DNA of 64,000 bases, taken from NCBI GenBank assembly GCA_001784175.1, contig MFPR01000020.1, forward strand, positions 62,001-126,000, in the 5' to 3' direction. The DNA comes from Candidatus Lindowbacteria bacterium RIFCSPLOWO2_12_FULL_62_27 (lineage in GTDB: Bacteria > Lindowbacteria > 2-12-FULL-62-27). Shown here one piece after another: positions 1-62,695 of the stretch. How positions within the stretch are numbered: the first letter of the stretch is position 1; each line of letters begins with the position of its first letter. A program made the translations under genes and the position numbers. The notes under the pieces are model-generated. The model was given only the letters and a program-made list of their open reading frames with translations, was not told where the DNA came from and made no database searches.

Positions 1-1
1 C

Positions 2-736
2 ATTCTTCTCGTGCTGACCGGCGTCGGCCCGGCCATCTCGTGGCGGAAGGCGACCGGATCGAACTTGGCGAGGAATTTTCTCACGCCGGCGGCCGGGGCC
101 GCGCTGTCGGTGGGGATTCTGTGGGCCGGGGGCGTGCGGCATCCAAAGGCGGCGATGGGGATCGGCTGCATCGTGTTTGTTCTGTCGTGTCTCATTCTCG
201 AATTCTACCGGGACACCGCCGCGCGGCGCCGGTCGACCGGCGAGGCATTTTTCCCCGCGATGGGGCGGCTGATCGGCAAGAACCGCCGGCGGTACGGCGG
301 ATACATCGTGCATGTGGGCGTTGCGGTTACGGCGCTCGGCATCGTCGCCTCGTCGGCCTATCAGGTTGAAAAACAACTGGAGCTTCAGCCGGGCCAGTCC
401 GCGCGCGTGGAGCGGTTTCGGCTGGAGATGGTGGACCTCACGGACGGCGTGCTGCCCAACGCGAAGACCGTCCGGCTGCGCCTGAACGTTTTCAACGAGA
501 ACCGTCCGATGGGCGAGCTTGTGGCTGAGAAGCGCTTGTACGAGAAAACGGAACAGCCGCACACGGAGACCGGCGTGATGGCCCGATTTTTTTATGACCT
601 CTATGTGGTCCTCGCCGGCTGGTCGGGCGACGGGACGGCGATGATCCATGTGTATGTGAATCCGCTCGTGAGCTGGGTGTGGCTGGGCGGCGGGATTTTG
701 CTGATGGGCGCCGTCGTGTGTTTGTGGCCGAAGTGA
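2..736 (+). CDS. ccmF: Cytochrome c heme lyase subunit CcmF, C-terminal part
   Basis: This is the C-terminal 244 residues of CcmF, the integral membrane subunit that ligates heme to apocytochromes c in System I maturation. The reading frame is open to the left edge, so the 5' end lies outside the window. Seen: membrane segments near the start and at the very end (YVNPLVSWVWLGGGIL), and the CcmF-type block around EKRLYEKTEQPHTE followed by FYDLYVVLAGW, which is characteristic of the family's periplasmic loop. The stop overlaps the GTG of ccmH by four bases (GTGA), and ccmA and ccmB follow, so the neighbourhood is a ccm operon. The family assignment is secure; only the length is unknown. Confidence 0.93.
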   Translation: MLLVLTGVGPAISWRKATGSNLARNFLTPAAGAALSVGILWAGGVRHPKAAMGIGCIVFVLSCLILEFYRDTAARRRSTGEAFFPAMGRLIGKNRRRYGGYIVHVGVAVTALGIVASSAYQVEKQLELQPGQSARVERFRLEMVDLTDGVLPNAKTVRLRLNVFNENRPMGELVAEKRLYEKTEQPHTETGVMARFFYDLYVVLAGWSGDGTAMIHVYVNPLVSWVWLGGGILLMGAVVCLWPK

Positions 737-1161
737 GCGCGTCGCTTGTGTTATTGCATCTGGCCCTCTTTTTCCCGGCTGCGACTCCCCAGCCCTCTGA
801 CTTGGTCTCGGAGTTCATGTGTCCGTGCCCCGACCGGTGCGGCAAGGCGCTCGAGGTGTGCGAGTGCTCGGACGCGGCCGGATACATCCAGGAACTCATG
901 GATCTGCGGAGCCGCGGCCTGAGCCGGGAGGCGGTGCGGGAGAAGTTCGTCGAGAAGTACGGCCCCTCGGTTCTGGCGTCCCCGCCCGCGAAAGGATTCG
1001 GCCTCGTCGTGTATCTGCTCCCGCCCCTGGCGGTACTCGGCGGCGCCGTTCTGGCGGTCGGGGTCGCGCGGCGGTGGAAGCGCCGGCCTGTTGGCGCGCC
1101 CAAGGTGACGGATGCGGATTTAAAACGGGCCGAGGAGGCGATGAAGAAATGGCGATCGTAG
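733..1161 (+). CDS. ccmH: CcmH/CycL-type cytochrome c biogenesis thiol protein
   Basis: A 142-residue protein with a hydrophobic N-terminal signal segment, then a cysteine-rich block (FMCPCPDRCGKALEVCEC) and the family stretch EKYGPSVLASPPAKG followed by a membrane helix. CcmH keeps apocytochrome CXXCH thiols reduced for heme attachment. The usual LRCPVCQ motif is replaced by a variant carrying five cysteines, so the redox chemistry may differ. I chose GTG at 733 because it overlaps the ccmF stop (GTGA) and places the signal peptide at the N-terminus; a longer reading from 679 would remove that. The gene ends just inside the next one. Confidence 0.85.
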   Translation: MSASLVLLHLALFFPAATPQPSDLVSEFMCPCPDRCGKALEVCECSDAAGYIQELMDLRSRGLSREAVREKFVEKYGPSVLASPPAKGFGLVVYLLPPLAVLGGAVLAVGVARRWKRRPVGAPKVTDADLKRAEEAMKKWRS

Positions 1162-1424
1162 GCGCGGTCATGATGCTCCTGTCCGCCGCCGCGCTCTTGT
1201 ATGTCTTCTCGGCGTTTTTGAGCGATCCGGCCGGCGTCGGAGACGCCGGCACTTGGGGCGCCGGAGGCGCTGATCCGCCGTCACCGGCCGCCCGCGCGGC
1301 CGAAGCGATCGCCGAGATGGAAATGGATCTTGCCGCCGGAAAGATTTCCAGGGAGGATTTCGAGACGATCCGCAGTCAGGCCGTCGCGGAGTTGGCGGCG
1401 GAATTAAAGAAAGGACGCGCATGA
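1149..1424 (+). CDS. Mini CcmI-like membrane protein (91 aa)
   Basis: A 91-residue protein with one N-terminal membrane helix (about residues 3-23), a flexible linker, and a charged amphipathic tail (EMEMDLAAGKISREDFETIRSQ) that resembles the N-terminal membrane and linker part of CcmI, where a D/E-rich stretch with a G-K-[IL]-S-x-E-D-[FY] core follows the first helix. The large TPR domain of full CcmI is missing. The ATG overlaps the end of ccmH by 13 bases and the stop overlaps the next gene (ATGA). Residues 27-43 are encoded by the 51-bp palindromic element, so part of the linker is probably repeat-derived. The CcmI relation is inference from a short match. Confidence 0.62.
   Translation: MAIVGAVMMLLSAAALLYVFSAFLSDPAGVGDAGTWGAGGADPPSPAARAAEAIAEMEMDLAAGKISREDFETIRSQAVAELAAELKKGRA
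1227..1277 (+). repeat. 51-bp palindromic coding-embedded element, copy 1
   Basis: The element holds an inverted repeat GCCGGCGTC-3 nt-GACGCCGGC followed by a smaller hairpin around GCGCC-GGA-GGCGC, and ends in GATCCG. This copy lies in the linker of the 91-residue protein and is read in the frame CCG-GCC-GGC. It differs from copy 2 by one base in 51. Confidence 0.85.
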
Positions 1425-2383
1425 ATCGGTTGTGGGGTCATTCTGTTAGTTTGTTAGTCAGCCATTGGTTCATTGTTGCATTCTCAATGTTGAATGTATC
1501 CGCCGTCCCCGCCGCCGGCGCCGAGCCGGGCCTGGCGATCCGGCAGAATCACCTGTTCTTTGAATTCGCCGGGGAGAGCGGCCGGGTGGTGTGCGGGATA
1601 CAGGAAATCGTGGTGATCGAAAACGCCGGCTCGGCGATTCCTGAAAATCCGGCCGGAACGGTCCGGTTGTCGGTTCCGGTGGCCGCCCTCTCGGTCCGCC
1701 CGATGCCGGTGCCGCCGGTCATGCCGGGCGCCGAATCTGTCCGGCCGCTTGAGGCATCGGAGGTGGACATCCAGCCGGGCGAATTGCGGATCAAACGACA
1801 TCTTCATGCGGGCAAGAACACGTTTTCGTACGCGTATATCCTCCCGGTTTCCGGCGACGCCGTCCGGTTTGAGAAGAAGGTGATCATGCCCACCCGCCTC
1901 CTCGTTTCCTTCGCGCCTGATGTCGGCGGGCTGACGTCGAAGACGCTGACGGTCGAACGCGCCGAGGGCGGATACAAGATCATCGGTCAGAGTCTGGCTG
2001 CGGGCACGATGATCGATCTGGAGTTCACCGGCGTCGGACGCGTGTCGGCTGGCGTCCCGACACCGGATCCCGGCGCCGCCCCGGTTCAGATCGCCCCGAG
2101 CCGGACCATCGAGGCGTTTCTGGCGCCGACGATGGCCGGCGTTATTCTGGCGCTGGTTGTGTTCCTACATCTTCGGCTGCGCCGGACCGCACGGTCGGTG
2201 GAGGCGCGATTCCGGAAATTTCTGATGGACGAAATCGAATCTCTCGACGCCGCTTTTGATCGAAGCGATGTGCGGCCGGAGTATCACAAGCGCAGAAAGA
2301 AACTCCTGATGGATATGCTCCGGATCAGCGCCTCCGGCGCCCCAAGTGCCGGCGTCTCTGACGCCGGCCGGGAGATTCATTGA
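1421..2383 (+). CDS. Unknown signal-anchored protein with cytoplasmic tail, ccm-linked
   Basis: A 320-residue protein I cannot name. Seen: N-terminal signal-like hydrophobic stretch (to about residue 33, ending VPAAGA), a beta-rich extracytoplasmic region of roughly 190 residues, one membrane helix near residues 228-250 (APTMAGVILALVVFLHL), and a charged cytoplasmic tail with FLMDEIESLDAAFDRSD, similar in style to linker segments of CcmI-type proteins. The last 20 codons are largely made by an inverted copy of the 51-bp element. It starts by a four-base ATGA overlap with the preceding gene and overlaps ccmA, so it is co-translated with the ccm genes and may act in cytochrome c assembly; that role is inferred from position only. 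Confidence 0.75.
   Translation: MNRLWGHSVSLLVSHWFIVAFSMLNVSAVPAAGAEPGLAIRQNHLFFEFAGESGRVVCGIQEIVVIENAGSAIPENPAGTVRLSVPVAALSVRPMPVPPVMPGAESVRPLEASEVDIQPGELRIKRHLHAGKNTFSYAYILPVSGDAVRFEKKVIMPTRLLVSFAPDVGGLTSKTLTVERAEGGYKIIGQSLAAGTMIDLEFTGVGRVSAGVPTPDPGAAPVQIAPSRTIEAFLAPTMAGVILALVVFLHLRLRRTARSVEARFRKFLMDEIESLDAAFDRSDVRPEYHKRRKKLLMDMLRISASGAPSAGVSDAGREIH
2321..2371 (-). repeat. 51-bp palindromic coding-embedded element, copy 2 (inverted)
   Basis: Reverse-strand copy, 50 of 51 bases equal to copy 1. It encodes residues 301-317 at the C-terminus of the unknown ccm-linked membrane protein and is read from the strand opposite to that used in copy 1. Confidence 0.87.
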
Positions 2384-3012
2384 TATCCATCACGGACCTC
2401 ACCGTCGATTTCGGTCCGGTACGGGCCTTGGATCACGTGACGCTGGATCTGCCGTCCGGCGCCATCATGGTTCTTGCCGGTCCGAACGGTTCCGGAAAGA
2501 GCACCCTGCTCTGGGCGATGGCGGGCCTGCTCCTGCCGACGTCCGGCGCCGTGCGACTGCGCGGGCCGGCTGGCGTGCCGTCGATCGGATTTCTGGCGCA
2601 TCAGAGTTTTCTGTATGAGGAACTCACCCCGCTTGAAAATCTCGTTCTGGCCGCGCGGCTGTGCGGTCTGTCCGATCCGGCCGGCCGGTCCATCGGGATG
2701 ATCCGGAAGATCGGGCTGGAATCCGAGTCCCGTCGGCGGGTGTCTACCTTGTCCCGGGGGCAGCAACAGTTGGCGGCGTTTGCGCGCGCGGTGTTGCCGG
2801 ACCCGCCGGTTCTGTTTCTGGACGAGCCGTTTTCGAATCTCGACCGGACGGCCGTCCACGTCATCCGTCAGATGCTTGATCCCTTTGTGTCCCCGGACCG
2901 TCTGGCGGTCATTGCGACGCACGATCCGAATCCGGAACCGTTGTCCGGCTTGCCGACCCGTTGCATCCAGATCGAATCGGGGCGGGTCCGCATGGTCCGC
3001 GGAGCATCATGA
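2380..3012 (+). CDS. ccmA: Heme exporter ATP-binding subunit CcmA
   Basis: A 210-residue ABC ATPase that drives release of holo-CcmE in cytochrome c maturation. Walker A is GPNGSGKST at residues 34-42, the Q-loop glutamine is near 75, the signature LSRGQ at 124-128, Walker B LFLDEP at 145-150 and the switch histidine at 181. It is short and ends soon after the H-loop, as CcmA proteins do. The start is TTG at 2380, overlapping the stop of the gene before; no ATG fits better because the first strand (ISITDLTVDFG) begins right there. ccmB follows with an ATGA overlap. The generic ABC match is certain; the CcmA identity rests on size and on the ccmB partner. Confidence 0.92.
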   Translation: MISITDLTVDFGPVRALDHVTLDLPSGAIMVLAGPNGSGKSTLLWAMAGLLLPTSGAVRLRGPAGVPSIGFLAHQSFLYEELTPLENLVLAARLCGLSDPAGRSIGMIRKIGLESESRRRVSTLSRGQQQLAAFARAVLPDPPVLFLDEPFSNLDRTAVHVIRQMLDPFVSPDRLAVIATHDPNPEPLSGLPTRCIQIESGRVRMVRGAS

Positions 3013-3677
3013 ATCCCGTATCGGCGCTGGCGGCGGCGGAACTGAAAGTCGAATGCCGGAACCCTTCGGGTGTTGTCTCCGCCGCAATGTTTTCCTGCCT
3101 CGCGCTTCTGGCGCAGGCGCTGGTCCTTCCAGGCGTGGTTGCGGCGCGCCCGGAGGCGGCCTTTGCGGCGTGTTTCATCGCTGTCTTTTTTTCGGTGCTT
3201 CTGGCGGAAACCGGCCGGATGGCGCGGGAATCCAAAACGGGAACGCCGTTTGTCCTTGCGCTCAGCCCGGCCTGCTCGCCGGCGCTCTTTGCGGGGAAAT
3301 CCGCTGTGCCGTTCGGTTTCATGATGCTGGTCGAAGCCTGCATGGCGCCGCTTCTGATTGTGTTCTTTAACCTGCCAGTCCGGGGGCCCTGGTGGGCCGT
3401 CGCGCTTCTCGCGGCGCTGGTGAATCTGTCCCTGGCGGGATTGACCACACTCCTCGGCGCCGCCGCGTCGTCCTGGAAAGGCGTCGCCCGCGCCGTCTCG
3501 TTGCCGCTCCTGGTCCTTCCGCTCGCGCTGCCCGTTCTGGCGACGGCCGTGGTCGGCGCCGCCCGCGCGATGGCGCACGATCCGTTCGGCGCGCATCTCC
3601 GGCTGCTTCTTGCATCGGCTCTGGCGATCTGGACCGTGGGCATGGCGACGTACGGGAAATTGCTTGGAAGATATTGA
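3009..3677 (+). CDS. ccmB: Heme exporter membrane subunit CcmB
   Basis: A 222-residue polytopic membrane protein with about six hydrophobic helices, the permease partner of CcmA. The family segment following helix 2 is visible: ETGRMARESKTGTPFVLALSP, a degenerate version of the D-x-x-x-G-x-[LI] stretch of CcmB. ATG at 3009 overlaps the ccmA stop by four bases, which decides the start against a longer reading from 2961. ccmC and ccmE are not in the window and may lie upstream with the rest of ccmF. Confidence 0.9.
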   Translation: MNPVSALAAAELKVECRNPSGVVSAAMFSCLALLAQALVLPGVVAARPEAAFAACFIAVFFSVLLAETGRMARESKTGTPFVLALSPACSPALFAGKSAVPFGFMMLVEACMAPLLIVFFNLPVRGPWWAVALLAALVNLSLAGLTTLLGAAASSWKGVARAVSLPLLVLPLALPVLATAVVGAARAMAHDPFGAHLRLLLASALAIWTVGMATYGKLLGRY

Positions 3678-3699
3678 TCGAAGAGATACCGTAGAGCGT

Positions 3700-4674
3700 A
3701 TGAGCGATTCGACCGGCCCGGAGGTTGGTCCGGAGGCGAAATTCCGGCCGGCGTCAGAGACGCCGGCACCTGGGGCGCCAGAGGCGCTGTTCCGCCCCCA
3801 GCTTCTGGTGCAGTGGTTTGTCATCCCGCTTCTCGTGGTGGGCTTGTGTGTCGGGCTGTATCTCAGTTTCCGGCTGCTGATGCTGGAGAGCAAGACGACG
3901 GAAGACTATTTGAACGAGCTGCGAAGCGGCAACCCGCATCGCGCCTGGCAGGCCGCGTTTGCGCTCGCCAACCAGGTCAATCTCGGCCGCCTCCCGGAAC
4001 ACGAACAGTCTGCGGTCGGCCGGCAGCTCCTCGAGATGCTGGACCAGAGTTCGGCCGGCGCAGGCGAAATCCGGCACTATCTGATTCTGACCCTGGGCCG
4101 GCTCCGGTACTCGGAGGCCGTTCCGCGCTTGCTCGCATTGGCCGACGGCGCGGACGCGACGGAAAAAATATACGCGCTGCTGGCGCTGGGAGAGATCAAA
4201 CCGGTCGAGGCGATCGACGCCGTGTCCCGGTCGCTGAATGATCCGGACCCGGGCGTCCGGAAAACCGCCGCGCATCTTTTCGCTGTGCTGAATCGCCCGC
4301 TGCCCGCCGGCCGGGTCAGCGCCTATACCCTGCCGCCGGACTGGCCGGTGCGCCTTCGGCCGGTCCTGAACGATCCGGTTGCGGACGTCCGATGGAACGC
4401 GGCGATTTCACTTGCCGAGTTCCGCGACCCGGCGGCCATTCCAGTGCTGGCCGGTATGCTGGACCGGCCGGTGCTGGCGGCCGAGCTGAAAGAATTCGGC
4501 GGACTTGACGAAACGAAGGTCGAAAAGATAATCAAGGCGGCACTGGCCGCAAGCCTGCAGTATCGGGATGCCGGCCTGGGCGGGAAAATCCAGACGCTGG
4601 CTGAATCGGATCCCAACGCCGCGGTGCAGGCGACTGCCCGACAGGCCTTGGAGCGCTTAAGAGGGACGAATTAA
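3700..4674 (+). CDS. Membrane-anchored HEAT-repeat protein beside the bc complex
   Basis: A 324-residue protein with a short N-terminal tail, one membrane helix near residues 37-58 (VIPLLVVGLCVGLYLSF) and then helical HEAT/PBS-type repeats, seen as recurrent A-x-x-x-L and D-x-x-x-x-V-R-x-x-A-A patterns (DPDPGVRKTAAH, DPVADVRWNAAI). Such repeats are protein-binding scaffolds. It sits between the ccm genes and the Rieske gene and abuts the latter with no gap, which suggests a role in assembly or stability of the bc-type complex (inference). Residues 16-32, before the helix, come from copy 3 of the 51-bp element. The ATG at 3700 was chosen because the upstream extension would overlap ccmB. Confidence 0.82.
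   Translation: MSDSTGPEVGPEAKFRPASETPAPGAPEALFRPQLLVQWFVIPLLVVGLCVGLYLSFRLLMLESKTTEDYLNELRSGNPHRAWQAAFALANQVNLGRLPEHEQSAVGRQLLEMLDQSSAGAGEIRHYLILTLGRLRYSEAVPRLLALADGADATEKIYALLALGEIKPVEAIDAVSRSLNDPDPGVRKTAAHLFAVLNRPLPAGRVSAYTLPPDWPVRLRPVLNDPVADVRWNAAISLAEFRDPAAIPVLAGMLDRPVLAAELKEFGGLDETKVEKIIKAALAASLQYRDAGLGGKIQTLAESDPNAAVQATARQALERLRGTN
3744..3794 (+). repeat. 51-bp palindromic coding-embedded element, copy 3
   Basis: Forward copy with three differences from copy 2. It encodes the segment before the membrane helix of the HEAT-repeat protein and is read one base out of phase relative to copy 1, so conservation is of DNA rather than of peptide. Confidence 0.85.
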
Positions 4675-5223
4675 ATGGCGGAACAACCACAATCCCCAAA
4701 CGTCGAACCCAAACCCGCCGCACTTGGGGCGCCGGAGGCGCGGACCCGGCGCGGGTTTTTCAAGTGGCTGGGCGGCGCATGGGCGGCGTTTACGGCCGGC
4801 GTCGGCATGATGAACATTCTGACGGTCCGATTCCTCTATCCGAACGTGCTGTTCATTCCGCCCACCGACGTCAAAGTTGGCTTGCCGGAGGAATTCCAGG
4901 TGGGTCAGGTGGACACGCGGTTCAAGGACAAATTCGGGTTCTGGATCGTGCGGACCGAGGAGGGATTCTACGCCGTGTCGACGGTCTGCACCCACCTCGG
5001 CTGCCAGCCCAACTGGCTGGAGGCGGAACAGAAATTCAAATGCCCGTGCCACGGATCAGGATTTTATGTTTCGGGGATCAATTTCGAGGGCCCGGCGCCC
5101 CGGCCGCTTGAGCGGTTCCGCATCGTCCTCGCGGACGACGGGCAGATCTTGGTGGACAAGTCGAGAAAGTATCAGCATGAGTTAGGGCAATGGACAGACC
5201 CAGAGGCGTTCCTCAGAGTTTAA
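4675..5223 (+). CDS. Rieske iron-sulfur protein of a cytochrome bc-type complex
   Basis: A 182-residue Rieske subunit that passes electrons from quinol to the c-type cytochrome. The [2Fe-2S] ligands are C105-x-H107 with C110 in CTHLGC, and C123/H126 in CPCHGSGF; the two extra cysteines C110 and C125 would form the stabilising disulfide. The N-terminus has a twin-arginine stretch (RRGFFKWLGG, residues 25-34) followed by a membrane anchor (AAFTAGVGMMNIL), as expected for Tat-dependent Rieske insertion. It is the first gene of the bc set; cytochrome b follows after 72 bases. Residues 15-25 match a truncated 51-bp element. ATG directly follows the preceding stop. Confidence 0.95.
   Translation: MAEQPQSPNVEPKPAALGAPEARTRRGFFKWLGGAWAAFTAGVGMMNILTVRFLYPNVLFIPPTDVKVGLPEEFQVGQVDTRFKDKFGFWIVRTEEGFYAVSTVCTHLGCQPNWLEAEQKFKCPCHGSGFYVSGINFEGPAPRPLERFRIVLADDGQILVDKSRKYQHELGQWTDPEAFLRV
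4717..4748 (+). repeat. 51-bp element, truncated copy 4
   Basis: About 32 bases matching the right half of the 51-bp element (CACTTGGGGCGCCGGAGGCG), with its left palindrome missing. It is read in the same phase as copy 3 and encodes residues 15-25 of the Rieske protein, in the disordered N-terminal tail before the Tat motif. Confidence 0.7.
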
Positions 5224-5295
5224 GAACGCCTCGTTTCGTAGCTCCCCGTTGCGGGGCTTCTGATTTTCTGAATTTCTGATTTGAGGTGTACCCTG

Positions 5296-6114
5296 ATGTG
5301 GGACAAGATTAAGAATTACGTCACCGACTCCCAAGTCTGGAAATCCGTCATCCGGCACGGATACCCGGACACCCGCCGAAACCGTGTCCTGGTGGTCCTG
5401 ACCAACGTCTTTTTGCACCTGCACCCGACCAAGGTCCCGGCGCATTCGCTCAAGCTCTCCTACACGTGGTGCATGGGCGGCCTCACGTTTTTCCTGTTCC
5501 TGGTCGAGACTCTGACCGGCGTTCTCCTCATGTTTTACTACCGGCCCGTCGGCGAATACGCCTACAACGACATTCTCGCCCTCCGGGAACACGTCCCGCT
5601 CGGCATCATGCGCGAAATTCACCGTTGGGGCGCGCACGCCATGGTCATCACGGTCTGGCTTCACATGCTGCGCGTCTTTTTGACGGGTTCCTACAAGCCG
5701 CCCCGCGAGTTCAACTGGGGCGTCGGCGTGATTCTGCTCACGCTCACGCTCCTGTTGTCCTTCACCGGATATCTTCTCCCCTGGGACCAGCTCGCGATCT
5801 GGGCCATTACGGTTGGGTCCAACATGGCGCGCGCCACGCCCTTTGTCGGGCATGAAGGTCCGGGATCAAAACTCCTCAATCCCGGCCTGCTTGGCATGGA
5901 GGACATTCCGCTGATCCATGCGACCGACGACGCCCGGTTTGTGCTCTTGGGCGGCCCATTTGTCGGTGAAGCCACGCTGCTCCGGTTTTACGTTCTGCAC
6001 TGCGTCTTCATCCCGCTGGCGGCGGCCACCCTGATCGCCGTGCATTTCTGGCGGGTCCGAAAAGACGGAGGCATCTCCTCGCCGACGGACGACTTTTCCC
6101 AGAAACCCCTGTGA
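5296..6114 (+). CDS. Cytochrome b, N-terminal (b6-like) subunit
   Basis: A 272-residue membrane protein carrying the heme-binding four-helix core of cytochrome b. Histidine pairs are visible on helix 2 (RWGAHAMVITVWLHML) and helix 4 (LHCVFIPLAAATLIAVH), enough for two b hemes, and the quinol-site region follows GYLLPWDQLAIWA. It ends after helix 4, so cytochrome b is split as in b6/subunit IV systems. ATG 5296 is preceded by GAGGTG at 5283-5288 with good spacing, which decides against the TTG at 5281. The stop overlaps the next gene's GTG (GTGA). Confidence 0.95.
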   Translation: MWDKIKNYVTDSQVWKSVIRHGYPDTRRNRVLVVLTNVFLHLHPTKVPAHSLKLSYTWCMGGLTFFLFLVETLTGVLLMFYYRPVGEYAYNDILALREHVPLGIMREIHRWGAHAMVITVWLHMLRVFLTGSYKPPREFNWGVGVILLTLTLLLSFTGYLLPWDQLAIWAITVGSNMARATPFVGHEGPGSKLLNPGLLGMEDIPLIHATDDARFVLLGGPFVGEATLLRFYVLHCVFIPLAAATLIAVHFWRVRKDGGISSPTDDFSQKPL

Positions 6115-7190
6115 TCGAGACCCTCAAACACTGCATTAACGCCCTCGCCGCGCCGACGATCTTTTTGCCCCTGGTGGCGGCCGCGTTTTTCCTCGTCCTG
6201 CATTTTTACCGCACCATCACGCGCCCGAAGGTGGCGCTCGGTATCCTGATCGGCGCGATCCTGTTTTACGTCGTGTCGCTCTTCGACCCGAATTTCCAGC
6301 ACATCGTCGCCAAGCCGGACAACGTGCCGATCACGATCATGCTCCTCCTGTGTGGATTCTGCGTCTGGCTGGCCCTCCGGCAGGCCGCGATCAACGACGA
6401 GCGGATGGAACGGGGCCTTCCGCCGCTCGAAAAGGAGTCGAGCGAGACCATTTTCGTCTGGCCAGACCTCGTCTACATCGAATTTTTGTCCGCCATCCTT
6501 GTCGGCGTCATCCTGACCCTGTGGTCGATCGAGCTGAAAGCGCCGCTGGAGCAGCCGGCGAGCCCTTTCAAGGCGCCGAACCCCTCCAAGGCGCCGTGGT
6601 ACTTTCTGGGGTTGCAGGAAATGCTGGTGTATTTCGACCCGTGGCTGGCCGGCGTGGTTTTCCCGAGTCTGATCATCTCCGGGCTGATCTCTATTCCGTA
6701 CATGGACACCAATCCGCGGGGCAGCGGCTACTACTCGTTCAAACAGCGCCGGATGTCGATCACGATTTATCTGTTCGGATTCCTGTTTCTTTGGGTCACG
6801 CTCATCATGCTCGGCACGTTTTTCCGGGGACCCAACTGGAACTTTTTCGGGCCTTATGAATTCTGGGACGTCCACAAAGTCGAGCCGCTGGTCAATATCA
6901 ACCTGAGCGAGATCATCTACGTGAAACTCCTCCACACGGGCATGCCGGCCCACTGGCTGCCGCGGGAGATATGGGGCCTGCTCCTTGTCGGATTCTACCT
7001 CTTTGCCCTCCCGCCGATCCTGCAGAAAACGGTGCTGAAGAAATTTTACGCCGAGATGGGCTTTGTCCGATACAACGTCTTCATGATGCATTTCCTGATG
7101 ATGATGATGCTCCCGCTGAAGATGATCTGCCGGTGGATGTTCAACCTGAAATATTTCGTCGCCGTCACCGAGTTCTTTTTCAACATCTGA
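6111..7190 (+). CDS. Cytochrome b, C-terminal (subunit IV-like) protein
   Basis: A 359-residue membrane protein that completes the split cytochrome b. The quinol-oxidation region is seen as PNPSKAPWYFLGLQEMLVYF, with APWY in place of the PEWY motif. It is longer than plant or cyanobacterial subunit IV (about 160 residues): extra hydrophobic segments lie both before this block (residues 10-90) and after it (about residues 215-345, including a methionine-rich stretch near 325). The start is GTG at 6111, overlapping the previous stop. Function: quinol oxidation and proton translocation jointly with the N-terminal subunit. Confidence 0.92.
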   Translation: MIETLKHCINALAAPTIFLPLVAAAFFLVLHFYRTITRPKVALGILIGAILFYVVSLFDPNFQHIVAKPDNVPITIMLLLCGFCVWLALRQAAINDERMERGLPPLEKESSETIFVWPDLVYIEFLSAILVGVILTLWSIELKAPLEQPASPFKAPNPSKAPWYFLGLQEMLVYFDPWLAGVVFPSLIISGLISIPYMDTNPRGSGYYSFKQRRMSITIYLFGFLFLWVTLIMLGTFFRGPNWNFFGPYEFWDVHKVEPLVNINLSEIIYVKLLHTGMPAHWLPREIWGLLLVGFYLFALPPILQKTVLKKFYAEMGFVRYNVFMMHFLMMMMLPLKMICRWMFNLKYFVAVTEFFFNI

Positions 7191-7192
7191 CC

Positions 7193-10063
7193 ATGGCCCA
7201 AAAACCGCCTGCCGACAAATATTTCCGGGACATGCCGGCCGTCCACATGGTGTTCTTCGCCTCGGCGGTCGCCATGGTGGCCGTCATCGCGTGGATGTCG
7301 TGGGACGATTACGCCAGGGACTGGAAGGGATATCAGCGGCACTTCGAAAAGCTCGAACGGGCCCTGGCGAAGGAGGAGCTGAAGGCGGCCAAGGCGCGGC
7401 TGGACGGGGAGAAAATCCAACAGCTTCAGCAGGACATCGCCGCCGAGGCCGGGGCGTTGAAGAAAAACCGCGTCGAATACGAAAAGGCTCGCGCGGAGCA
7501 CCGCAAGGCCGACGCGGACCTGTACCGGAAGAGAACGGTCATGGCGTTCGCCAAATCCGACCTCGACGCCGGCCGGTACCAGTACGAGGAGGCGACCCGA
7601 CACGGGCCGAACGAACGGGCGCTGAAGAAATTCGAAGCGATTGAGAAGAGGCACCGCGACGCCCGCGAGGCCTTCATGCGCCAGGAAACCCTCGTCAAGA
7701 CGCTCGAGGAACGCGTGAAATCTTTTACGGACCGCAAGGAGCAGCTTGAAAAGGCGCTGGAGCGGGCGCAGTCGGAGGGCCGGATCCTCGCGGCCAAAAT
7801 CGACAAGCTTTCGCCCAACCCTCTCAAGTTTCTCCTGAACGCCCCGATCCTCGATTTCGTCGCGCCGACGTCCAGAATCCGCCAGACGGTCCTCCCCGAT
7901 CTGCACGACGATTATAATTTCCTGATGGTCGAGAAGGTCGACCGGTGTCACACCTGCCATCTGGGGATCGAGAAACCGAGCGTGAAGGACGCCGACGGCA
8001 ACGTCGTCAAGCTCGGATACGACGACGACAATCCCAATGCGCCGTACCGCGCGCAGCCGTTCCGGGCGCATCCTCGCCTGGATTTGTACGCCGGCGCCGG
8101 ATCAAAGCATCCGGTGGAAAAATTCGGCTGTTCGACCTGCCACGCCGGCGTCGGGCACGCCGTCAGCTTCATGGACGCCGGCCATACGCCGAAAGACGGC
8201 GCGCAGGAGGCGGCATGGAAGAAGAAATACGGATACAAGCCGCTCGACCACAACCATCTTTCCGATTTCCTGTGGGACTACATGATGTATCCGGGCGACC
8301 TGGTGGAGGCGTCCTGCCTGAAATGCCATCAGGGCGTGGTGGAAATTCCGGAGGCGCGCGCGCTGAATGCCGGCCGGCGGCTGTTCGAGGACTACGGCTG
8401 TTACGGATGCCACAAGACGGCCGGGTTCACGGAGCTTCGAAAGCCCGGGCCGCCGCTCACGCATCTCCAGGAGAAAGTGTCGGCCGACTGGGTCAAGAAA
8501 TGGCTGAAGAACCCGAAACGGTACCGTCCCACCACCCGGATGCCGCGGTTCTTTGATCTGTCGAACACTTCGAGCGCGGAGGACGTGCGGCGAAGCGACG
8601 CCGAAATCGCAGCCATCACGGCGTTCCTGTACGACCGCGCGCGTCCTCACACGAAATTCGACGCGCCGCCGGGCGCAGGCGACGCGAAACGAGGGAAGGA
8701 ATTGTTCGAAACGGTCGGCTGTCTGGGCTGCCACAGCATGACGGCATCCAACCGGTCGGCCAATGATTTCGGGCCGGACTTGGGCGCGCTCGGGAGCAAA
8801 ATCTGGGACCGCGCGTGGCTCTTCACGTGGCTCCGCGATCCCCGGCGGTATTTCCCGCACACCAAGATGCCGAGTCTGCGGCTGACGGACGAGGAGGCGG
8901 GGGACATCGCAGCGTATTTGCTCAGCCTCAAGAATGCGGAGTTCGACGAGGCGCCGGTTCCGGCGGGCTCGGTCGACGACGTCGACGCGATTCTCCGGCA
9001 GTTCTGGTCGGCCAAGGAAACGTCGATCCGAATGGACGAAAAATTGCAGGAAATGCCGGAGAAAGACAAATGGATCGCAGCCGGAGAAAAACTGATCGGC
9101 CAGTACGGCTGTTTCGGATGCCACGATATCGCGGGCTTCGAGAAAACCAACCCCATCGGCACCGAGCTTTCGGAGGAGGGCAGCAAGGACCTCGACAAGC
9201 TGGATTTCGGCGGCCTGCATCTCGCGCACGACCGCATGACATGGTTCACGCAGAAACTCACCGACCCGCGCGCGTTTGACCAGGGCAAGCAGAAGGACCG
9301 GCAGGACAGGCTCCGGATGCCCAATTTTGATTTCACGCCCGATCAGGTCCATCAGCTCGTCACGCACATCTTTTCGATGACGAAGGACCAGGTCCGGCCG
9401 GAGCGCCGGCGGAGGCTGTCGGCGCGGGAGGAGATCGTCGAGAAAGGCCGGCGGCTGGTCCGCGACCACAACTGTTACGGCTGTCACACGGTGGACGGCC
9501 ACGAGGGCGGCATCCGGGCGTACTATCAGGAGGACCCCGGTCTTGCGCCGCCCATCCTGTTCGGGCAGGGCCGGAAGGTCCAGGAGTACTGGCTGTATGA
9601 GTTCCTGAAGCATCCGACGACGATCCGCCCGTGGCTCAAGGTGCGAATGCCGACGTTCGGATTTTCAGACGAGGAGGCGACGGCCGTCGTCAACTATTTT
9701 CAGGCCCTCGACGACGTCAAACACGTCTATCGCCCGAAGGATTTTCACAAACCCGACGCCCAGCTTGCGGCCGCCGGCCGGGACCTGTTCGACAAATTGC
9801 AGTGCATGAAATGCCACGTCGTCGGATCGCAGGCGCCGCCGGGCCGCGCGGCCGGCGATCTCGCGCCGGACCTGGCGATGGCCAAACAGCGCCTGAACGC
9901 CGACTGGCTGATCGACTGGCTGTCAGACCCGCAAAAACAGATGCCGGGCACCCGCATGCCGGCCTTCTTCGCCGAGGGCCGCCCGGCCCTGCCCGACGCT
10001 TTGGGCGGCAGCGCTGAAAAACAAATCCAAGCCCTTCGGGACCACGTTCTAAGTCTTCGTTAG
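7193..10063 (+). CDS. Octaheme membrane-anchored cytochrome c with coiled coil
   Basis: A 956-residue protein with an N-terminal membrane helix (residues 15-34), a long charged coiled coil (about 38-210, rich in K, E, A, Q), then eight CXXCH heme sites with first cysteines at residues 252, 313, 375, 403, 510, 640, 761 and 871. The later part is a chain of class I cytochrome c-like modules, each with a downstream methionine motif such as TRMPRF, TKMPSL, LRMPNF and TRMPAF. It directly follows the cytochrome b genes (2 bases) and presumably replaces cytochrome c1, carrying electrons from the Rieske centre toward terminal reductases or oxidases. ATG 7193 was chosen because a start at 6971 would lie inside the preceding gene. 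Confidence 0.93.
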   Translation: MAQKPPADKYFRDMPAVHMVFFASAVAMVAVIAWMSWDDYARDWKGYQRHFEKLERALAKEELKAAKARLDGEKIQQLQQDIAAEAGALKKNRVEYEKARAEHRKADADLYRKRTVMAFAKSDLDAGRYQYEEATRHGPNERALKKFEAIEKRHRDAREAFMRQETLVKTLEERVKSFTDRKEQLEKALERAQSEGRILAAKIDKLSPNPLKFLLNAPILDFVAPTSRIRQTVLPDLHDDYNFLMVEKVDRCHTCHLGIEKPSVKDADGNVVKLGYDDDNPNAPYRAQPFRAHPRLDLYAGAGSKHPVEKFGCSTCHAGVGHAVSFMDAGHTPKDGAQEAAWKKKYGYKPLDHNHLSDFLWDYMMYPGDLVEASCLKCHQGVVEIPEARALNAGRRLFEDYGCYGCHKTAGFTELRKPGPPLTHLQEKVSADWVKKWLKNPKRYRPTTRMPRFFDLSNTSSAEDVRRSDAEIAAITAFLYDRARPHTKFDAPPGAGDAKRGKELFETVGCLGCHSMTASNRSANDFGPDLGALGSKIWDRAWLFTWLRDPRRYFPHTKMPSLRLTDEEAGDIAAYLLSLKNAEFDEAPVPAGSVDDVDAILRQFWSAKETSIRMDEKLQEMPEKDKWIAAGEKLIGQYGCFGCHDIAGFEKTNPIGTELSEEGSKDLDKLDFGGLHLAHDRMTWFTQKLTDPRAFDQGKQKDRQDRLRMPNFDFTPDQVHQLVTHIFSMTKDQVRPERRRRLSAREEIVEKGRRLVRDHNCYGCHTVDGHEGGIRAYYQEDPGLAPPILFGQGRKVQEYWLYEFLKHPTTIRPWLKVRMPTFGFSDEEATAVVNYFQALDDVKHVYRPKDFHKPDAQLAAAGRDLFDKLQCMKCHVVGSQAPPGRAAGDLAPDLAMAKQRLNADWLIDWLSDPQKQMPGTRMPAFFAEGRPALPDALGGSAEKQIQALRDHVLSLR

Positions 10064-19870: not shown

Positions 19871-20574
19871 CGGCGCCGTTTGTTTTCAAGCATGTCATTT
19901 CAGAATTGAGCGCGCGTCCGTGCGGTCCGCTGCTCGATATCCCGGCGGGCCGGTTGGAGATGTGCTGGGTCCTGTCGGGAAGGGGATTCGAATGTGTCGC
20001 CGCCGATCTGTCGCTGGCGGATGGAGAGGAACCCATGCCAGACGGAAAGACCATCCGGCGATGCCGGGTCGACCTGAACCAATCCCTGCCGTTTCCCGCG
20101 GGCGCCTTCCAGTATGTTTTGTGTGTTGAAGGCCTCGAACATGTCGAAAACACATTTCTTGTATTAAGGGAACTCCATCGGGTCCTGCGCCCGGGCGGGG
20201 AGATATTCATCACAACGCCCAACATCCTGAACATCCAGTCCCGGATGCGGTTTCTGCTGTCCGGAACGTACATGAGTTTCCCGCATCTGACGGCGCCCGT
20301 TCGTGCTGCCGAACACGCCCATATCAATCCTGTGGCGTATCCGATGCTGGACTTCGCTCTAAGGCAGGCAGGATTTGATCACATCGTGGTTCACAGGGTC
20401 CACAGGAAATGGAAACTGCTTGTGTACGCTCCAATCCTCCTCATGATCAAGTTCCTGAACGTATTTCCACGCCACGGCCAGTCGCCGGACAGTGCGCGGA
20501 TTAGAAATACCATTCAGTCCACGAATTTTCTGATGTCCGACGCAATGGTGGTCAGCGCCCGGCGGGCTGCATGA
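19867..20574 (+). CDS. Class I SAM-dependent methyltransferase
   Basis: A 235-residue methyltransferase. The Rossmann core is divergent at motif I (LLDIPAGRLEMCWVLSGRGFECVAADLS) but clear at the later strands: FQYVLCVEGLEHVENTFLVLRELHRVLRPGGEIFITTPN, typical of small-molecule or glycan methyltransferases. A hydrophobic segment near residues 190-205 (KLLVYAPILLMIKFLNVF) might associate with membrane. It starts four bases inside the preceding GT9 gene. Role in methylating a glycan or lipid precursor is inferred from context. Confidence 0.85.
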   Translation: MTAPFVFKHVISELSARPCGPLLDIPAGRLEMCWVLSGRGFECVAADLSLADGEEPMPDGKTIRRCRVDLNQSLPFPAGAFQYVLCVEGLEHVENTFLVLRELHRVLRPGGEIFITTPNILNIQSRMRFLLSGTYMSFPHLTAPVRAAEHAHINPVAYPMLDFALRQAGFDHIVVHRVHRKWKLLVYAPILLMIKFLNVFPRHGQSPDSARIRNTIQSTNFLMSDAMVVSARRAA

Positions 20575-61784: not shown

Positions 61785-62695
61785 TCCAGTATTTTTTGCC
61801 CGCCTTTTTCCAGGAGATGCGCCGCCAGTTCCTGTGCGGTCGCTTCCGGGTCCCGGCCGGACAGGCCGGCCCGCACACGAAATTTGCCTTCCACCGAGTA
61901 CATCGCCGCCTCGATCGCGCACCCGCCGGCCGGGTCAGCGTCTCCGACGCCGGCCTGCGCCCACGCGGCCACCGGCCAGCGGCAGTCCGCGCCCAGGGCC
62001 TTGACCAACGCGCGTTCGGCTCGCAGCGCCGTGGCGGTCGGCGCGTCGGTCAGTTCAGAGAAGGCCGGCGCGTCGGCCGTCCTCGATACGAGCATGAGCG
62101 CGCCCTGCCCGGGTGCGGGCAAAAAATCGGCGGTGGGAATCCGCGCGTATTTCAATCCGCGCGATTCGATGACACGGGCTGCGCCACCCAGCCGGTTGAT
62201 CCCTGCGGCCGCCACCACGACGGCGTCGCACACGGATGGATCGCCCAGAATCTTTCCCAGCCGCGTCTCCACATTGCCCCGGATTTCGACGATCTCAAGA
62301 TCCGGGCGCAAATAGAGAAGCTGGGCCGAACGCCTCAGCGACGCGGTCCCCACCCGGCCGCCGGCTGGCAATGCCTTCAAGTCGGCGCCGGTCCGGCTGA
62401 CCAGAAGATCCCCGGCGTCCTCGCGGGCCGGCACGGCGGCTACGATCAGGCCGGGCGCTATCTCCACAGGCACGTCTTTCGCGCTGTGCACGGCCAGATC
62501 GATCCGGCCGGCCAGGAGCGCCTCGTCCAGCGCCTTCACGAACATTCCCTTGTCACGCAACAGCCCTCTGTCACCCTCCGTCACTATCCCAATCAGTTCA
62601 ACCGCCATGTCCCTGTTCCTCAGCAGCCCGGCGACCCACTCCGCCTGCGCAAGGGCCAGCGGACTTTTGCGCGTGCCGATTCTGACGGTTGCCAT
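61754..62695 (-). CDS. hemC: Hydroxymethylbilane synthase (porphobilinogen deaminase)
   Basis: A 313-residue enzyme that polymerises four porphobilinogens. Catalytic D74 in HSAKDVP, substrate-binding arginines in GTASLRRSAQ and RGNVETRL, and the dipyrromethane-attaching cysteine C238 in GADCRWPVAA. Just after that motif, residues 248-255 (VGDADPAG) correspond to a truncated 51-bp element and lengthen the loop before the next strand. Four bases separate it from hemA. Confidence 0.95.
   Translation of the reverse strand: MATVRIGTRKSPLALAQAEWVAGLLRNRDMAVELIGIVTEGDRGLLRDKGMFVKALDEALLAGRIDLAVHSAKDVPVEIAPGLIVAAVPAREDAGDLLVSRTGADLKALPAGGRVGTASLRRSAQLLYLRPDLEIVEIRGNVETRLGKILGDPSVCDAVVVAAAGINRLGGAARVIESRGLKYARIPTADFLPAPGQGALMLVSRTADAPAFSELTDAPTATALRAERALVKALGADCRWPVAAWAQAGVGDADPAGGCAIEAAMYSVEGKFRVRAGLSGRDPEATAQELAAHLLEKGGQKILEWNRTHCARA
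61931..61955 (-). repeat. 51-bp element, internally deleted copy 5 inside hemC
   Basis: On the minus strand GGCCGGCGTCGGAGACGC is joined directly to GCTGACCCG-type right end, as if about 26 bases between the two hairpins were lost. It lies 56 kb from the other copies and is read in the phase of copy 1. The match is short, so this one is tentative. Confidence 0.5.

Follow-up and report, generated by a model that had tools for sequence, protein, structure and literature searches.

The best-known cases of palindromic repeats lying in frame within protein-coding genes come from Rickettsia and Wolbachia, which are intracellular and have reduced genomes. In both genera, repeated palindromes occur in frame in unrelated, often conserved genes, where they are tolerated and where the mobilizing factor is unknown; the Rickettsia palindromic elements (RPEs) are 105–146 bp long and carry long stem-loops and 12-bp terminal inverted repeats (PMC2229807). 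Bacterial MITEs such as Correia, ERIC, and YPAL are small and nonautonomous and can encode fused reading frames; they measure about 100–200 bp, mostly have terminal inverted repeats and a target duplication, and are mostly intergenic (PMC2229807). In the REP/TnpA-REP system, short hairpins are recognized as folded single-stranded DNA (PMC8266576); REPINs show compensatory changes (PMC3116915), and REP families display alternative complementary stems (PMC3733652). The CGTC-tagged REPs, which include RPE-4 and RPE-6, have stems of 8–9 bp, are often dimeric, lie inside genes, and have had no dedicated transposase found (PMC3733652). Here, we describe a 48-bp element that probably represents a family of very small nonautonomous mobile DNA, analogous to the Rickettsia palindromic elements.

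Copies of the Element in the Window

The window is a stretch of 64,000 nucleotides (C20:62001–126000) of the 4.39-Mb draft genome G000 (62% GC). A preliminary description of the window had reported three copies of a palindromic element, at 1227–1277 (+), 2321–2371 (−), and 3744–3794 (+), placed as a linker, a C-terminal tail, and an N-terminal tail of three membrane proteins; the copies were present at these positions, and their placement matched the host genes (table 1). Their high likeness also stood, with an identity range of 92–98% (1, 3, and 4 mismatches over 51 bp) replacing the 94–98% given. The unit had been taken to be 51 bp and 17 residues long, which proved too large: as defined by empty sites and nested copies, the insert is exactly 48 bp, or 16 codons, and the additional left-hand CC and right-hand G belong to the target.

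In the homologues of the copy 1 host protein from G001 and G002, two further genomes of the phylum, a gap was observed at the element, and for the copy 2 host the alignment of both homologues stops where the element starts. The G001 orthologue of the copy 3 host reads PEVGPEAK-FRANLL, with a gap of exactly 16 residues. Two more pieces were found in the window. The 5'-truncated copy has 3 mismatches over 30 bp and was matched by the covariance model at C20:66715–66750 (E = 5.9e-5), and the 24-bp form adds AGVGDADP to porphobilinogen deaminase (HemC), at a site where the PDB homologues have a gap. Window positions 1–10063 hold a cytochrome c maturation and Rieske/cytochrome b/multihaem cluster, in which 3.6 kb of sequence contains three full copies plus a truncated one; the gene order around these copies is kept in G001 and G002, without the three full-length inserts.

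Table 1. Copies of the element and their host genes in the window (window positions), and nested copies in two genomes (contig:position).
Feature	Position	Strand	Remarks
Host gene of copy 1	1149..1424	+	small membrane protein
Full-length copy 1	1229..1276	+	+ frame 1, AGVGDAGTWGAGGADP; linker in 91-aa membrane protein, cytochrome c maturation cluster
Host gene of copy 2	1421..2383	+	
Full-length copy 2	2322..2369	−	inverted relative to gene; frame −2, ISASGAPSAGVSDAG; C-terminal tail
Host gene of copy 3	3700..4674	+	
Full-length copy 3	3746..3793	+	+ frame 2, PASETPAPGAPEALFR; near N-terminus of HEAT-repeat-like membrane protein
5'-truncated copy	4719..4748	+	right hairpin and spacer only; N-terminal region of Rieske iron-sulphur protein gene
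24-bp single-hairpin form	61932..61955	−	GGCCGGCGTC-GGA-GACGC-TGACCC, 0 mismatches; in hemC
Nested copies, G000	C4:404324, C33:71422, C26:135191, C4:478004		
Nested copies, G002	C125:36058, C76:23492		

Hairpins and Covariation

The unit is laid out as GGCCGGCGTC-GGA-GACGCCGGC, ACTTGGG, GCGCC-GGA-GGCGC, and TGAYCC, and contains two hairpins with stems of 9 and 5 bp and RGA loops. In single-strand DNA folding, either strand returned the same two hairpins (z = −3.5 and −4.6), exactly the number initially described. An alignment of 56 G000 copies showed that positions 1–49 are invariant or nearly so, and that only a target preference exists outside them. The stems covaried strongly, and the loops and linkers were almost constant. 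Among 38 distinct G000 copies, double-sided changes were observed at five stem pairs, with values reached in none of 500 shuffles, and every slid pairing register scored below the true register. The predominant form of hairpin 2 is GCCGC-GGA-GCGGC in G002 versus GCGCC-GGA-GGCGC in G000. In the full set of 93 copies, double compensation was seen in 88 stem cells versus 24 without it (3 wobble and 21 broken); these cells are nonindependent events, whose compensation could come from template switching too.

Quasi-palindromes can be perfected by intrastrand template switching. The element might accordingly be mobile while its stem covariation stems from palindrome-correcting template switching in replication, and not from selection for a folded substrate; the process is known for quasi-palindromes, and entire stem blocks were found to change together. 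However, identical stem variants turn up in numerous copies, at distinct sites and in both genera, as expected if folded variants spread, and we consider template switching a somewhat unlikely source of the covariation.

Ends, Target Site, and Size Forms

The general target of the 93 copies is CC^GGCCGGCG. On the left flank, C was found at −2 in 70 of the 93 copies and at −1 in 76, with little preference further left; on the right, G at position 49 was present in all 93, followed by G (69/93), C (67/93), C (66/93), and G (62/93). Insertion occurred without target loss, and any target duplication is one G at most. Homology of the right flank to the left end, considered as a long target duplication, was ruled out, the flank being constant despite variant left ends (GGTCGG, GGCCGATG). 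In the nested copies, a newer 48-bp unit was placed between loop bases 1 and 2 (G^GA) of an older copy, and these insertions thus define both ends of the unit. The nested copies at C4:478004, C125:36058, and C76:23492 may have one composite ancestor in common.

Sharp ends and a fixed length would also be produced if a DDE-type transposase moved the element as a very small MITE, short-ended and with a target duplication of 1–2 bp, and the invariant G at positions 1 and 49 is compatible with a 1-bp duplication. However, terminal inverted repeats are absent from the 48-bp element, which ends in GGCCGG and TGAYCC (GGCC in 71/93 and AYCC in 90/93 copies), and the conservation sits in the internal loops and the spacer. 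Moreover, copies whose left flank departs from CC still have CC at the right end, and there is thus no duplication beyond 1 bp. A DDE-type mechanism therefore appears unlikely.

The unit also occurs in other sizes. A 57-bp form with three hairpins was found four times in G002; G000 has one, which differs from these. A single-hairpin form of 24 bp was matched exactly at five places in G000 and closely at one more. Each of the three unit sizes (24, 48, and 57 bp) is divisible by 3, a property that the preliminary description had suggested checking in the copies. The additional hairpin of the 57-bp variant (L153 and L173–L176, mostly G002) reads TCCGCC-TGA-GGCGGA.

Copies short at the 5' end were also present, several of which retain the 3' end without the 5' part, as might be left by spread as RNA via target-primed reverse transcription. 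A group II intron in G000 (L069 16455–16871; RF02005, RF02003) is a possible source of the reverse transcriptase, and the covariation would fit RNA equally well. However, 3'-truncated copies exist too, the 93 copies have the same length, no poly-A or primer tail was seen, and some of the 5'-short copies, of 33 bp, probably arose by a 15-bp in-frame deletion between both GCCGGC repeats of stem 1. We regard spread as RNA as quite unlikely. On G000 contig C31 (L134), two 5'-short copies lie about 200 bp apart (20173–20220 and 20391–20428), one of which seems to contribute to a signal peptide (MKTRHLMLFTLLALAGTWGAGGADP).

Copy Number and Spread

The preliminary description had suggested looking for further copies in the genome and its relatives. 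A structure-aware scan of about 742 kb of genome stretches, from which low-scoring spurious matches were discarded, gave 61 full-length copies in G000, 31 in G002 (a second genus), and 1 in G001 (a third genus). The 42-bp core had 50 matches in G000 at up to 3 mismatches versus none for the reversed-pattern control, and the covariance model returned 78 matches at E ≤ 0.01. The phylum was sampled by these three genomes of three genera, all of which are draft MAGs; an assembly or binning artefact was ruled out, since all three contain the family, with different sites occupied in each genus.

Between genera, the copies are about 86% identical, and no insertion site of the full-length G000 and G002 copies in orthologous genes was common to both. 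Because no site was filled in both genera, the copies moved after the genera split; they were inserted as exact 48-bp units, and their stems were kept paired across variants. The family was found in none of 383 other genomes, and the viral contigs, phages, and plasmids searched gave no element matches. In a strict-pattern scan of 84,980 species genomes (genome_contigs), a set that may omit the window's own genome, only JACQOF01 matched, which was taken as G002. As far as tested, the 48-bp element is confined to this phylum. An open-access literature search found no paper describing the element, which is not proof of absence.

Host Proteins and Frame Usage

Alignment of homologues without the insert placed the 48-bp unit at its empty sites. 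TrmD of G000 is exactly 16 residues longer at the insert than its G001 and G002 orthologues (68% identical), and the empty site in G002 DNA, AAATCC^GGCGGG, indicated a clean 48-bp insertion. In GluRS of G000, the insert lies within the catalytic domain and is missing from G002 and from the best two PDB chains listed. In each genome in which they were found, TrmD and GluRS each gave a single full-length match. In the FAD subunit of a molybdenum hydroxylase, the insert is inside the domain, with a gap there in the alignment, and more domain-internal inserts were observed in a squalene/phytoene synthase, a LolA-like protein, a hexokinase, and a GH116 enzyme. These data demonstrated in-frame retention within domains of essential enzymes. 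The host genes are unrelated, and 24 of 29 host ORFs matched a family in a Pfam scan. An AlphaFold model of TrmD with the insert had a mean pLDDT of 50, from too shallow an alignment.

The possibility that homologues carry the segment as an ordinary conserved peptide, raised in the preliminary description, was ruled out, as the peptides differ among copies and the relatives are without them. An immobile functional motif, whether a protein linker or a DNA or RNA regulatory hairpin, maintained by gene conversion or repeated selection would suit the flexible, apparently tolerated peptides and the retained hairpins but is highly improbable against a peptide that varies with frame and strand, unrelated host genes, the lack of sites common to genera, and nested insertions.

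By a simple codon score, 89 of the 93 copies lie in coding frames; since the same score gives a genome coding density of 94–96%, we concluded that the mobile element neither seeks nor avoids genes. Six loci, among them those whose coding signal was weakest, were searched against Rfam, and no RNA family lay beneath an element. All six frames are used and the stems covary, which agrees with the different phases and strands and the DNA-level conservation proposed from the first three copies. The 89 copies were distributed as 37 in frame −2, 17 in −0, 16 in +1, 10 in +2, 7 in −1, and 2 in +0, which departs from the approximately 11–23% per frame that target-like sites predict. Five of the six element frames, rather than the four initially counted, are stop-free, with TGA only in + frame 0. 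This frame was depleted (2/89 versus about 15% expected; p = 0.0002), and in both of its copies the host gene ends at the element's TGA, whereas the −2 frame was favored (37/89; p = 3e-5). The seldom-used −1 frame is Arg-rich, and the favored frames are rich in Ala, Gly, Ser, and Pro. Such frame usage is what insertion and subsequent protein-level selection produce. The genes closing at the element TGA (L063 and L156) have gained an Arg-rich tail.

Mechanism and Candidate Mobilizer

The element inserts either at the general target or within a hairpin loop of a copy already present. A length divisible by 3, five open frames out of six, and mostly small and flexible residues would allow most insertions to be tolerated as surface-loop linkers; those in Arg-rich or stop-bearing frames would be removed by selection. 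A Y1/HUH-type transposase acting in trans may recognize the hairpins in their folded, single-stranded DNA form. The fixed ends, the duplication of at most 1 bp, the paired stems with near-constant loops, and the loop insertion fit a single-stranded DNA intermediate with an HUH/Y1 enzyme. Single-stranded HUH/Y1 transposition is our leading guess, held tentatively because none of the Y1 genes shows linkage to the element. The flanks of the eight Y1 genes in G000, a draft genome that may miss a gene, contained neither the element nor another abundant repeat, and the numbers of Y1 genes and full-length copies (8 and 61 in G000, 10 and 31 in G002, and 6 and 1 in G001) do not track each other. With no linkage and no copy-number relation, a Y1 transposase as the proven mobilizer is unsupported. 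No transposition events were observed. The eight Y1 transposase-like genes (L091–L098) have open frames of about 290–365 aa.

It is also possible, if on the doubtful side, that the element represents a class of gene-adapted mobile DNA, with lengths in multiples of three, five of six frames open, mostly flexible linkers, compensated stems under fixed loops, and loop insertion by an unrecognized single-strand mechanism unrelated to RAYT/REP.

Relation to Known Elements

Like RPEs, the 48-bp element lies in frame in unrelated genes, and homologues of TrmD, GluRS, and the third window gene are without the insert. Unlike RPEs, it is less than half their size and has two separate short hairpins in place of a long stem; it also lacks their terminal inverted repeats, is GC-rich, belongs to an unrelated uncultured phylum, and nests in its own loops. 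Compared by published description, RPEs are the closest in behavior. The preliminary likening to Rickettsia was strengthened by the copy number, covariation, stop-frame depletion, and 16-residue empty sites, and the element works like an RPE.

With REPs and REPINs, the element shares folded hairpins kept by compensatory changes. Some REPs lie in genes. Unlike the mainly extragenic REPs and REPINs, however, 89 of the 93 element copies are intragenic; the terminal GTAG or CGTC is absent, and, unlike in REP/RAYT systems, no element was found near any of the eight Y1 loci in G000. In CGTC-tagged REPs the CGTC is at the end, whereas that of the element is inside stem 1, beside the loop; the loops have 3 nt versus 4–5 nt, and both hairpins form one fixed 48-bp unit. 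Unlike MITEs, the element has no inverted termini and no target duplication of several base pairs, and its empty sites show clean 48-bp insertion. Fungal and sponge mitochondria contain double-hairpin or hairpin-forming elements, which are mobile hairpin units. These may be comparable in form, but they are organellar. Because its behavior is closest to RPEs, and because its termini, its intragenic location, and its distance from Y1 loci all differ from REPs and REPINs, we judged the element to be a new, separate variant of protein-coding palindromic mobile DNA, a member of neither RPE nor REP.

The same lifestyle as in Rickettsia and Wolbachia thus occurs in a 4.4-Mb, 62% GC environmental genome of another phylum, in a family recent enough for clean empty sites. 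It offers proteins, even TrmD and GluRS, a route to gain 16-residue linkers in one step, and it makes the survival of an insertion in an essential enzyme, the upkeep of folded hairpins, and the enzyme moving such elements open to experimental testing. Outside the element, a k-mer count of the G000 stretches revealed further repeated words, such as TGATATCATGATATC and GGCAACGTCGGCATC.
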